NCBI GenBank assembly: GCA_030037855.1
Contig: JASHPY010000116.1
Coordinates: forward strand, 1 to 37,733
Length of the DNA stretch: 37,733 nt
Direction of reading: 5' to 3'
From: Thermoplasmata archaeon
GTDB lineage: Archaea > Thermoplasmatota > Thermoplasmata > Lutacidiplasmatales > UBA184
Every line of letters starts with the position of its first letter. Position 1 is the first letter of the stretch. Positions 122 through 3,294 of the stretch are shown in pieces. Under the pieces are notes generated by a model. The model worked only from the letters and a program-made list of their open reading frames with translations, did not search any database and was not told the origin of the DNA. The position numbers and the translations under genes are program-made.

Positions 122-1369
122 ATGCGAGCGACGCCGGCCGAAAGCCCTCGGTTGGCCCGGTTCGTGCGCGCGACCCGCCGCGGCGGACGGACGACCCTCG
201 ACCGCGCGTGGGACGAGCTCACGCGAGCCGGCCTGCCGCTCGTGGAACCGTCCGGGAGACGACGGCGGGAGCGACTCGTGACATTCGTATGGCGGCCGTC
301 GGGCTCGCCGACCGTCGCTTCGGTCTACACGCCGATGGCGGATCTCACCCCTCAGGGAACCGCGCTCGCTCCGATCGGGCGGACCGGCGTGTGGTACCGG
401 ACGTTCCGGTGGCCGTCGGCCGCTCGGGCGTCGTACGGGTTCGCGCCGCTCCCCCTCCCCTCGCTCTCCGACGCCGGGACGGCGTGGGGAGCGTTCGTTC
501 GGTCGCTCCGGACGGACCCGTGCAATCCCCTCCGCGTTCGAGCCGGCCCGACGTTCTACCTCTCCGAGGTGGCACTGCCGGGGGCCCCCTCCCAGCCGTG
601 GAGCGCAACGATCGAGACGGTGGAGGGGAGCGAGGATCAGCGAACGTTGCCGAGCCGAGCCCTTGGCAACCGGCGCTCGGTCTGGGTCGCCCTCCCGGAC
701 CGGTTCGACGCGCGTCGCGCTCGCCCCAACCTCGTGATCGTGTTCGACGGACCGGCGTACGAGGACCCGATCCCGGCCCGGCGCATCGTGGCCAACCTGA
801 CGGCGGCGGGACGGATCGGTCCCACGGCCGTCGTGCGCGTCGACAACGTGCCGGGCGGTCGAGAGAAGGAGCTGACCGACAATCCCGCGCTCTCCCGATT
901 CCTCGCGCGCGAGCTCCTGCCGTGGCTGCGGTGCCGCTATGGCCTGCGACCCGTCGGGCGCCGGACGGTGCTCGCCGGTTCGAGTCTCGGCGGGCTCGCG
1001 GCCGCCTCGGCAGCCCTGGCGTTTCCGCGGAACTTCGGCGCGGTGCTCGCGCAGTCCGGTGCCTTCCTCGCGTCCACGGGACGAACCGACGGTGGCTCCG
1101 CGTCGATCTTCGAGCGGTACGCTCGCGAGCCGCGTCGCTCCTTGCGGTTCTACCTCGACGCGGGAACGCACGAGACGATCGTTCCCCCGGGAGGGACGGC
1201 GTCGCTGCTCGGAGGAGCGCGCCACCTGCGAGACGTGCTCCGGGCGAAGGGGTATCCGGTGGCGTACCGGGAGTTCGAAGGAGGCCACGACTACGTCTGC
1301 TGGCGCGGGACGTTCGCGGACGGACTCGTGCAGCTGCTTGGAGCAGCCCGTCGCCCCGCCCGCGCCTGA
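122..1369 (+). CDS. enterochelin esterase-like alpha/beta hydrolase
   Basis: This 415-residue protein has the layout of the Fes/esterase-D-like hydrolases. An N-terminal beta-rich region of about 170 residues (the position of the enterochelin esterase N-terminal domain) is followed by an alpha/beta-hydrolase domain. The likely triad is visible: nucleophile Ser288 in a GSSLGG elbow, Asp346 in FYLDAGTHE, and His389 in EGGHDY. The GGHD-x-x-x-WR ending is typical of this family. I see no signal peptide, so it is probably cytosolic. Family members hydrolyse ester bonds in siderophores or other acyl esters. No siderophore or iron-uptake gene is nearby, so the substrate is unknown. The ATG start is the first in a frame that keeps family-like sequence. 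The next gene is convergent. Confidence 0.8.
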   Translation: MRATPAESPRLARFVRATRRGGRTTLDRAWDELTRAGLPLVEPSGRRRRERLVTFVWRPSGSPTVASVYTPMADLTPQGTALAPIGRTGVWYRTFRWPSAARASYGFAPLPLPSLSDAGTAWGAFVRSLRTDPCNPLRVRAGPTFYLSEVALPGAPSQPWSATIETVEGSEDQRTLPSRALGNRRSVWVALPDRFDARRARPNLVIVFDGPAYEDPIPARRIVANLTAAGRIGPTAVVRVDNVPGGREKELTDNPALSRFLARELLPWLRCRYGLRPVGRRTVLAGSSLGGLAAASAALAFPRNFGAVLAQSGAFLASTGRTDGGSASIFERYAREPRRSLRFYLDAGTHETIVPPGGTASLLGGARHLRDVLRAKGYPVAYREFEGGHDYVCWRGTFADGLVQLLGAARRPARA

Positions 1370-1514: not shown

Positions 1515-1892
1515 CTATTCTCGCCCTGAGTCGTCGGCTCGGGGGAGCTTCGCGCGCCGGAGCTGCCGGCGGATCTTCGGGAGCTCGAGGGTGGCGAACC
1601 TCCAGAGCTCGTCGAAGTTCACGCGTTCGGCGGCGGCGGCGTAGGGGTGCGCGCTGTCGAACCGAAGGCGCCGCAGCACCCGCCACGGAATGTCGGGGTT
1701 CGTGGTACGGACCGACTGACCGACGGCTTCGCTGGCCTCCCCGAGCAGTTCGAGGTAGTGCTCGATCGTGGCTCGATTGCGGACGTCCCCGGGATCGAAG
1801 AACTCCTCGCGCCCACGCCGCACGACCTTCGTGATCTCGTCGGCGTATCGGAGCATGTCGCTCAGGACCCGACGCTGCCGATCGAGGGTCAT
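1515..1892 (-). CDS. HEPN-domain toxin, HepT/DUF86-like
   Basis: This 125-residue all-alpha protein resembles the DUF86/HepT family. It has the RX4HXY ribonuclease signature: Arg77, four residues, His82, Pro83, Tyr84. An upstream helix reads RNRATIEHYLELLGEA, as in other HEPN proteins. HepT proteins are RNases that are silenced by a partner minimal nucleotidyltransferase. That partner lies directly upstream with a gap of only two bases, so the two are surely co-transcribed. The ATG at 1892 is chosen because the frame continues upstream only through the partner gene with no family-like sequence. Cleavage of tRNA or mRNA is the known family role. The actual target here is not visible. Confidence 0.85.
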   Translation of the reverse strand: MTLDRQRRVLSDMLRYADEITKVVRRGREEFFDPGDVRNRATIEHYLELLGEASEAVGQSVRTTNPDIPWRVLRRLRFDSAHPYAAAAERVNFDELWRFATLELPKIRRQLRRAKLPRADDSGRE

Positions 1893-1894
1893 CT

Positions 1895-2341
1895 TCACAG
1901 CGGGACCCGCTCCGACTCGACCTGCGGCGTGATCGCCCAGTGGAGGCCACCCTCGTTGACCAGATCGACCCGTCGACCCAGAATCGCCTCGAGCTCGAGG
2001 GCGAGGGCCGAGCGGTCCAGAACGGAGTGCGGGCGCCCCCATCGGACCATCAGGTCAACGTCGCTCCCCTTCGTCGCCTCGCGCCGACGGACCGAGCCGA
2101 AGACCCAGATGCGGTCGACACCGAAGCGCCGGACGGCGGCTCGGATCTCCTCCTGGTGCGGGAGGAGCAGCTCCTCCACCCCGAGCCCCCGGCCGAGCTC
2201 GACCGGACGCAGTTTCGGCATACCGTAGCGCCGGCTCTTGCAGCGAGGGCACACCAACGGAAACCGAGTCGTGCGAATTTTCCATGCGTAGACGCACCGG
2301 TAGCATCGAACGCGCCGCCCCTTGCGTCCTGACATCGTCAT
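1895..2341 (-). CDS. zinc-ribbon / minimal nucleotidyltransferase fusion, MntA-like antitoxin
   Basis: This 148-residue protein has two parts. Residues 11-40 form a zinc ribbon with Cys13-x-x-Cys16 and Cys31-Pro-Arg-Cys34. Residues 55-148 form a minimal nucleotidyltransferase with the exact GSX10DXD catalytic motif (Gly82-Ser83, then Asp94 and Asp96) and a third acidic residue near Asp126. In type VII toxin-antitoxin systems, MntA inactivates HepT by adding AMP to a tyrosine near the RX4HXY motif. The HEPN toxin follows two bases downstream. Typical MntA proteins consist of the nucleotidyltransferase alone, so the zinc ribbon is unusual. It may bind DNA for autoregulation (inference). A second ATG lies two codons in. 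A short palindrome overlaps the start. Confidence 0.85.
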   Translation of the reverse strand: MTMSGRKGRRVRCYRCVYAWKIRTTRFPLVCPRCKSRRYGMPKLRPVELGRGLGVEELLLPHQEEIRAAVRRFGVDRIWVFGSVRRREATKGSDVDLMVRWGRPHSVLDRSALALELEAILGRRVDLVNEGGLHWAITPQVESERVPL

Positions 2342-2352
2342 ACATCAGTATG
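2339..2352. promoter_or_regulatory. palindrome over the MNT start codon, candidate operator
   Basis: CATAC and GTATG form perfect five-base arms around a four-base spacer, and the left arm includes the start codon of the zinc-ribbon/MNT gene. The surrounding 2340-2400 stretch is much richer in A and T than the rest of the window. Toxin-antitoxin operons are usually autorepressed at such sites. The zinc ribbon of the encoded antitoxin is a plausible binder. The arms are short, so chance is possible. Confidence 0.35.
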
Positions 2353-2634
2353 CTACATTACTTATTTCTATCGTGAAGACATCTAGATATACCCACTCCA
2401 CGTAACGGCCGGACGGGAAGCGCCACGGCCCGCCGTCCGAGATCGTCGGGGGTGCGGGCAGGATCGGATGACTGGGCGGTGGGAGGTCCGCGCGGCTCCG
2501 ATGAGCCCACGCGGAGGTCGATCGGGAGGTCGCGCCAAGTTGGACCGGATCCCGACCGCCGCGGGTCCTCCCGACTGGACGCCGAGTTCCGGCCACAGCA
2601 CCGGACGAGGACTCGTCTGAGCCCGCCGGTGCGG

Positions 2635-2946
2635 TCACCCTTTTCGAACGAGTGCCTTCACCCGGGAGAGCTTTCGATAGAAGCCGGGCCGGGCGCCGAA
2701 TGCCCCGATCTTGACGAGATCCCCGTCGACGACGAAGAACATCCGATACCCACCGACCTTCATCGACCACACGGGAGAAACCACACCCGGTGGCGGGGAA
2801 AGCTGAACGACCTCGTAGCCCGGACCAGAGGCGAACGGGTCGACCGACATCCCCCGAATGGCGCTCTCATAGATCGCCCGAACCGTCGGTGGCAGTTGGA
2901 AGAACTCCGTGAGCGCCCGGCGGTGACGGACGACGTGGAAGGGCAC
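2635..2946 (-). CDS. RelE/ParE-like toxin
   Basis: This 103-residue protein has the size and fold pattern of RelE-superfamily toxins. An N-terminal strand and helix pair (FHVVRHRRALTEFF) is followed by beta strands ending in GGYRMFFVVDGDLVKIGAFG and a C-terminal RPGFYRKL segment. In RelE enzymes the Arg in the GYR strand and basic or aromatic residues near the C-terminus take part in ribosome-dependent mRNA cleavage. The GTG start lies one base after the stop codon of the preceding antitoxin gene, which indicates translational coupling. A ParE-like gyrase poison cannot be excluded from sequence alone. Confidence 0.75.
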   Translation of the reverse strand: MPFHVVRHRRALTEFFQLPPTVRAIYESAIRGMSVDPFASGPGYEVVQLSPPPGVVSPVWSMKVGGYRMFFVVDGDLVKIGAFGARPGFYRKLSRVKALVRKG

Positions 2947-2947
2947 G

Positions 2948-3166
2948 CTACAGACCCTGGGCCCGACGCGCGCGGGACTCAGCGACCATGTGGTCCACCG
3001 GCTCGAACTCGTCGGACCGAAAACGCCGGTTAAGCTCAGCCCAGTTCAACCGATTCGGATGCGTCGCGAGTAGCAGCGCGATGACATCGTCGTAGGTTTC
3101 CTCGCCCGTCTTGAGCATCCCCAAGAGCTCGCGAGTTCGCCGGCTCACCGCCACCGTCGTGCTCAC
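2948..3166 (-). CDS. small antitoxin, VapB-like, partner of the RelE-like toxin
   Basis: This protein of 72 residues begins with a short strand-helix segment (STTVAVSRRTRELLGMLK) followed by GEETYDDVIALLL. This resembles archaeal ribbon-helix-helix antitoxins that start with a V-x-V-S strand. The C-terminal half, rich in charge, would wrap the toxin. I chose the GTG at 3166 over the GTG at 3175 because a TATA-like box centred near 3193 places transcription start near 3167, which makes 3166 a leaderless start and puts 3175 upstream of the transcript. The toxin gene follows after one base. The family assignment is moderate and the antitoxin role rests mainly on context. Confidence 0.7.
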   Translation of the reverse strand: MSTTVAVSRRTRELLGMLKTGEETYDDVIALLLATHPNRLNWAELNRRFRSDEFEPVDHMVAESRARRAQGL

Positions 3167-3189
3167 AGCCTGCACCAGTCGCTATGGGC

Positions 3190-3219: not shown

Positions 3220-3294
3220 CGGGCGCGGAGGGATTTGAACCCTCGACCGCCGGGTTAGGAACCCGGTGCCCTATCCAGGCTAGGCTACGCGCCC
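3220..3294 (-). tRNA. tRNA-Arg (anticodon CCU)
   Basis: The minus strand folds into a full cloverleaf of 75 bases. The acceptor stem is GGGCGCG paired with CGCGCCC, followed by discriminator G. There is a four-pair D stem. The anticodon stem CCGGG/CCCGG encloses loop TTCCTAA, so the anticodon is CCT, reading AGG. The variable loop has five bases. The T arm is GAGGG-TTCAAAT-CCCTC. CCA is not encoded. A TATA-like TGATATGC sits about 26 bases upstream, overlapping the stop codon of the preceding exoprotein gene. I see no intron. Confidence 0.95.

Follow-up and report, generated by a model that had tools for sequence, protein, structure and literature searches.

Few prokaryotic toxin-antitoxin modules are as abundant as the pairs of a HEPN toxin and a minimal nucleotidyltransferase (MNT) antitoxin. 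In the locus described here, the antitoxin of such a pair begins with a Cys4 zinc ribbon. The window, i.e., the whole stretch of 37,733 nucleotides that was analysed, is a contig belonging to a 1.75 Mb archaeal MAG. Its close sequence relatives are Thermoplasmata archaea, including UBA184 and Candidatus Lutacidiplasma silvani, and the host, also a member of the Thermoplasmata, belongs to the UBA184/Lutacidiplasma group, a family of soil archaea in the order Lutacidiplasmatales (described in PMC9287336).

On motifs, operon layout and fold, as seen in the sequence and in structure models, the gene pair is a type VII HEPN/MNT toxin-antitoxin operon (Table 1). As originally predicted, the antitoxin has an intact GSX10DXD motif (GSVRRREATKGSDVD) within a domain matching Pfam NTP_transf_2 (PF01909; 4.4e-12), and the HEPN partner, whose RX4HXY motif (RFDSAHPY) is likewise intact, starts two nucleotides after the MNT stop codon (TGA-AG-ATG). 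Foldseek matches of the MNT part (1wot, 2.4e-7; 7bxo, 3e-5; 8xeo, 5e-5) point to an MntA-like fold. Against the NCBIfam model MntA_antitoxin (NF047752) the protein scores 40.3 bits, short of the cut-off of 60; it is related to, yet outside, the curated MntA equivalog, and that cut-off is a naming threshold, not a biological property. A HEPN gene lies downstream of the ribbon-MNT gene in 78 of 83 cases, three of the remaining five having no room for one. All four ribbon cysteines and GSX10DXD are kept in 39 of 39 inspected antitoxin copies, and RX4HXY in 66 of the 78 HEPNs. In six HEPN partners (L046, L054, L102, L210, L294 and L299) the arginine of RX4HXY is lost and FxSxxKHEYW is found instead; their antitoxins lie on one tree branch and have the GTAA-N6-TTAC class of operator described below. 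Elsewhere in the window, the interval from the HEPN/MNT operon to a tRNA-Arg gene contains another small module of two genes, one RelE/ParE-like on visual inspection and the other DUF7557-like, both below Pfam cut-offs; a tRNA-His called by ARAGORN lies inside an esterase gene, has no Rfam support and is probably a false call.

Table 1. Positions of the features discussed in the text (window coordinates unless a locus, L, is named)
Feature	Position	Strand	Remarks
Antitoxin gene, zinc ribbon plus minimal nucleotidyltransferase	1895..2335	-	146 aa from the conserved MSG start
Alternative antitoxin ATG at 2341	1895-2341	-	148 aa ORF
N-terminal basic Cys4 zinc ribbon (predicted)	2198..2335	-	residues 1-46
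Ribbon Cys11/14/29/32	2303-2305, 2294-2296, 2249-2251, 2240-2242	-	
Minimal nucleotidyltransferase domain	1898..2155	-	residues 61-146; Pfam PF01909, Foldseek
GSX10DXD motif	2054-2098	-	
HEPN (HepT-like) toxin gene	1515..1892	-	125 aa; Pfam PF01934 1.5e-9
RX4HXY (RFDSAHPY) in HEPN toxin	1641-1664	-	
Predicted operator of the operon	2348..2372	-	GATAGAAATAAGTAA (2358-2372, class B) overlapping GTAA-N6-ATAC (2348-2361)
RelE/ParE-like module with DUF7557-like partner	2635-3175	-	
tRNA-Arg gene	3220-3294		
ARAGORN tRNA-His	909-1000	+	probably false call
Solo ribbons directly before restriction-modification/methyltransferase genes	L222, L223, L224, L227, L229, L230, L231, L285		
Cas1 homologues divergent to solo ribbons	L223:296-1489, L288:237-1430, L224:1815-2999, L222:1827-2594		
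Decayed Cas1 remnants beside solo ribbons	L231, L233, L235, L236		

The ribbon scores below every Pfam cut-off (best match Zn_ribbon_19, E 0.013, 16.1 bits against a cut-off of 30.8; none of the named zinc ribbons, including Zn_ribbon_19, HypA, TFIIS and others, scores above its curated cut-off), so annotation by that library misses it. In the 36-row alignment A1, eight ribbon residues (C11, R13, C14, W18, C29, R31, C32 and S34) are invariant, as are G80, S81, D92, D94 and others. The invariance of the four cysteines rules out a chance CxxC pair. Mean column entropy is 1.27 bits over residues 11-34 against 1.62 for the nucleotidyltransferase, and on these alignments the ribbon is among the better conserved parts of the antitoxin. 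Start codons lie 7 to 12 residues before the first cysteine in 38 of 39 copies (L072 has no standard start there) and not after residue 50, which rules out a fusion created by the choice of start codon. Homologues start at the second ATG (2335, MSG...) rather than the first (2341), and the ribbon cysteines are therefore numbered 11/14/29/32; the earlier numbering, 13/16 and 31/34, is correct if the first ATG is used. In an AlphaFold model of the antitoxin (mean pLDDT 93.9; residues 11-50 at 89-96), a confident ribbon, which would bind zinc, is followed by the MNT fold, and PDB matches of the model align with the MNT part only. These matches and the literature (PMC4621449, PMC7641770, PMC11586414) fit the view that characterised type VII antitoxins have no extra domain. 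Residues 1-45 carry a net charge of +15 in the window copy and +8.8 on average over 78 copies, compared with a mean of +0.5 for the nucleotidyltransferase. Ratios of dN/dS on close pairs fit purifying selection on the ribbon, with too few changes to carry weight.

A search for the fusion across archaeal genomes, as had been proposed, indicates that it is found throughout the lineage and does not arise from faulty annotation. The family was sampled with 61 genomes, in which a ribbon is encoded 333-479 nt upstream, on the same strand, of 67 of the 75 HepT matches. The eight matches without one comprise two at contig ends (L246, L207), a degenerate pair (L245), a HEPN without an MNT (L247) and four weak or partial HepT matches beside which no ribbon-type MNT was recognised. 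The search of 61 genomes returned about 45 matches from the same genus, most of them full-length and up to six per genome; matches from outside the genus begin at about residue 55, in the nucleotidyltransferase, or cover a ribbon-like stretch only. A phylum-wide search found the fusion in several genera of one family, and MNTs from other lineages have no ribbon. A wide occurrence in bacteria was considered and rejected: the tblastn coverage of four loci (L134, L146, L138 and L143) looked full-length, but their translations do not contain the ribbon cysteines. Among viral contigs, a single-protein query found no relative and an alignment query found one ribbonless MNT.

Upstream of the ribbon-MNT genes, paired GTAA half-sites form a predicted operator, arranged as TTAC-N6-GTAA (13 cases), TTAC-N7-GTAA (5), GTAA-N6-TTAC (13) or GATA-N1-4-ATAAGTA (14), with TTACCTTGAGGTAA, GTAAGTTTATTTAC and GATAGAGATAAGTAA as examples of classes A, C and B, respectively. 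The data set used for counting was also the one from which the motif and its classes were derived. In it, a strict site is present in 44 of 78 non-redundant upstream regions and absent from 34, compared with a mean of 0.4 and a maximum of 3 in dinucleotide shuffles; with one mismatch allowed, a palindrome is present in 49 of 78, compared with 5.4 in shuffles. Spacers between half-sites are sharply 6-7, and the half-sites are 10 bp apart in both palindrome classes. The window copy is of class B (CGATAGAAATAAGTAATGTAGCATAC, 13 to 38 nt before the ATG), and the GTAA-N6-ATAC that overlaps it departs from the GTAA-N6-TTAC palindrome at a single position. Counted over the fetched DNA, some 1.1 Mb in all, the 150 nt upstream of ribbons contain 45 distinct palindromes and the remainder nine; for class B sites the figures are 19 and 1. 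Two of the nine, GTAAG...CTTAC near solo ribbons, are codons for CKSPY and not operators. These off-site counts, and the ribbonless and winged-helix controls given below, do not support a general promoter element of the family genomes; GTAA(G) beside a TATA-like stretch may in part be a promoter element, which leaves the mirrored half-site unexplained.

The checks that are independent of motif discovery are ribbonless MNTs, winged-helix operons and other antitoxins that carry the ribbon. The site was found upstream of none of 50 ribbonless MNTs (Fisher test against 44/78, 3.5e-13) and of one of 25 operons with winged-helix antitoxins (1.3e-6), which have other palindromes of their own. When operator class was assigned by nearest neighbour, the ribbon was right in 60 of 64 cases and the nucleotidyltransferase in 54; with relatives capped at 60% mean identity, the corresponding figures were 55 and 23. 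The ribbon was also correct in all six cases in which ribbon and nucleotidyltransferase were discordant, and of the 12 alignment columns most informative about operator class, 11 fall in ribbon residues 3-26. Judged by these comparisons, operator type goes with the ribbon and not with the catalytic domain, and the most likely function of the ribbon is to read the operator of its operon. Linkage could imitate such co-variation, given that the ribbon is promoter-proximal, with codons within about 150 nt of the operator that recombination would rarely part from it. The palindrome would then be read by another factor or be a promoter feature, and the ribbon would serve elsewhere, in the antitoxin fold or in contact with HEPN, much as in MqsA, whose zinc domain contacts the toxin and leaves DNA binding to another domain. 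Operator class requires 15 changes on the protein tree compared with 40.6 when shuffled, a clustering also expected from shared descent. This alternative is nevertheless unlikely in view of the ribbonless MNTs, which have no site, and of the ribbons found on antitoxins of unrelated toxins.

Two such antitoxins have been identified, and in both the operator type is that of their nearest ribbons. The antitoxin at L226 has a class B ribbon with GATAGAGATAAGTAAG upstream, and its toxin is a nucleotidyltransferase with sub-threshold similarity to AbiEii. The antitoxin at L220/L307 has a class A-like ribbon with ACTTATAGGTAAGT upstream. Its toxin does not reach the cut-off for DUF6036; of 103 family genomes, 39 encode homologues of this toxin, about 60 in total. 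The antitoxin neighbouring these homologues is legible in about 25 loci and has a winged-helix N-terminus, with a KDELL-GMxPS tail in the closest relatives; its model resembles ArsR/MarR repressors. At L220/L307 the tail is kept, the N-terminus is a ribbon where relatives have the winged helix, and the operon has none of the winged-helix palindromes. Pairs of nucleotidyltransferase and winged-helix antitoxin occur at L307-L336 and also in the genome of the window (G000:C1:25714 and C101:946), with palindromes such as TATACAAAACGTATA upstream. The exchange of a winged helix for a ribbon, as read from the aligned proteins, is the argument least open to linkage, and it rests on one locus. Because ribbons that share an operator type are found on antitoxins whose toxins are unrelated, a partner-specificity module, one of the functions first suggested for the ribbon, is not supported. 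The suggestion of DNA binding and autoregulation has gained from the operator motif, from both controls and from the domain replacement.

The explanation that we favour, with a probability of about 0.78, is that one antitoxin chain does two jobs, the MNT domain silencing HEPN and the ribbon reading its own operator and autoregulating the operon. From its motifs and fold, the MNT domain would adenylylate the tyrosine of RX4HXY in the HEPN RNase and so silence this putative toxin, a transfer of AMP that has been described for the Shewanella and Thermococcus systems (PMC7641770). The Cys4 ribbon would bind an operator lying next to the promoter of its operon or overlapping it, and would read inverted GTAA half-sites one helical turn apart (TTAC-N6/7-GTAA or GTAA-N6-TTAC) and, in the window copy, the variant GATA-N-ATAAGTA. 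This contact would repress the operon, like the separate DNA-binding domains of type II antitoxins. As the ribbon would read the operator before its own genes, the same protein would both disarm the toxin and control its production. It has been proposed for HEPN/MNT systems that a DNA-binding component acts in trans (Makarova and colleagues, PMC2701414), and the Shewanella antitoxin SO_3165 binds and represses its own promoter with no recognisable DNA-binding domain (PMC4621449).

Alternatively, the ribbon might bind RNA and deliver the nucleotidyltransferase to tRNA or the ribosome; the MNT, or the complex, would then have RNA as its target and would not control transcription. The strong basicity of the ribbon would suit this role, HEPN toxins are RNases, and Cys4 ribbons are present in many archaeal ribosomal and RNA-modifying proteins. 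However, RNA binding would leave unexplained the operator motif, its absence before ribbonless MNTs and the exchange with the winged helix, and the solo ribbons of the family are mostly beside DNA-targeting restriction-modification genes; we consider it very improbable. Zinc sensing had also been suggested, and nothing was found in its favour. The Cys4 site is compatible with a switch of antitoxin activity by zinc or redox state but not specific to it, whereas the invariant cysteine pattern resembles a structural ribbon and no metal-homeostasis gene was noticed adjoining the operon. It is simpler to read the Cys4 site as structural, and a sensor can scarcely be entertained.

Operator reading by the ribbon may extend beyond MNT antitoxins. 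Among the ribbon matches with no HepT after them are copies at contig edges, the fusions at L226 and L220/L307, and 14 small proteins (47-64 aa) in which the ribbon stands alone. For eight of these 14 solo ribbons the next gene, at a distance of -1 to about 70 nt, belongs to a restriction-modification system or encodes a DNA methyltransferase, and the types of gene following solo ribbons are MmeI-like, type III Mod, Eco57I/HSDR_N, N6_N4_Mtase with Mrr, D12 and ResIII/HSDR_N. In the fetched DNA, no GTAA operator was found before the solo ribbons of restriction-modification genes. Several solo ribbons are divergent to a Cas1 homologue (PF01867; 1.6e-44 and 5.2e-48), and a crude repeat scan of 10-17 kb regions around several solo ribbons found no CRISPR array. 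Where Cas1, ribbon and a variable defence gene are arranged in this way, they could together form a defence cassette or a mobile element. At L238:383-1674 (-), the start of a cas1 gene is overlapped by an ORF of about 130 aa read in the same direction, ribbon-like but more divergent in sequence. In other Thermoplasmatota families, solo ribbons mostly stand apart from genes of these kinds, and some proteins carry the ribbon in tandem; those at L264, L265, L276 and L034 (families f8 and f22 of the same class) have about two to six copies each, some with an apparent helix-turn-helix tail. We suggest tentatively, at somewhat less than even odds, that the ribbon is a portable operator-reading head on antitoxins of at least two, and possibly three, unrelated toxin types (HEPN/MNT, DUF6036-like and AbiEii-like), taking the place of a winged helix in one of them, and that the solo form of 47-64 aa, where it precedes restriction-modification genes and is divergent to a Cas1 homologue, controls defence operons. 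If so, a single small zinc module would connect several conflict systems, each to its cognate operator.

Throughout this lineage, a candidate reader that forms a domain of its own and a short predicted operator would take part in the transcriptional control of HEPN/MNT systems, a natural case that makes the question of control directly testable with a peptide of 46 residues and a duplex of 14 bp. The naturally occurring pairs of ribbon and operator, which fall into several specificity classes, would also be useful for learning the recognition code of a Cys4 ribbon. No zinc ribbon fused to an MNT was described in the literature searched (open-licence papers). The HEPN-MNT pair of Legionella pneumophila (PDB 8xeo, 8xeh) has the same MNT fold, but its MNT is single-domain, and zinc, DNA-binding or operator data were not found in the text of the paper describing it. 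Type II antitoxins (RHH, HTH and AbrB types; MqsA) also combine neutralisation and operator binding on one chain; in the window antitoxin, neutralisation is expected to be enzymatic, by AMP transfer, and the predicted DNA reader is a Cys4 ribbon. The haloarchaeal protein Brz (PF23454), a short Cys4 beta-ribbon, is regarded as an archaeal transcription regulator and is one example of the small zinc-ribbon regulators of archaea, whereas the window ribbon is a fused module and has no Pfam match to Brz. The DUF6036/AbiEii-like nucleotidyltransferase pairs with winged-helix partners have a toxin that is unrelated to HEPN, with similarity to DUF6036 and AbiEii far below Pfam cut-offs, and L220/L307, which belongs with them, has this ribbon where the others have a winged helix. 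Closest to the window pair are the HepT/MntA systems of Shewanella oneidensis (SO_3166/SO_3165) and Thermococcus cleftensis CL1, which are likewise two-gene operons with the antitoxin first and the genes nearly touching, and which have in common with it GSX10DXD, RX4HXY and the nucleotidyltransferase fold (PDB 7bxo, 6m6w). Their antitoxins have neither a zinc ribbon nor a recognised DNA-binding domain, whereas the window antitoxin has an N-terminal ribbon and a conserved predicted operator. Autoregulation is a further point in common, reported for SO_3165 (PMC4621449) and predicted here, and the new element is therefore a dedicated, exchangeable candidate reading domain with an identifiable predicted operator.
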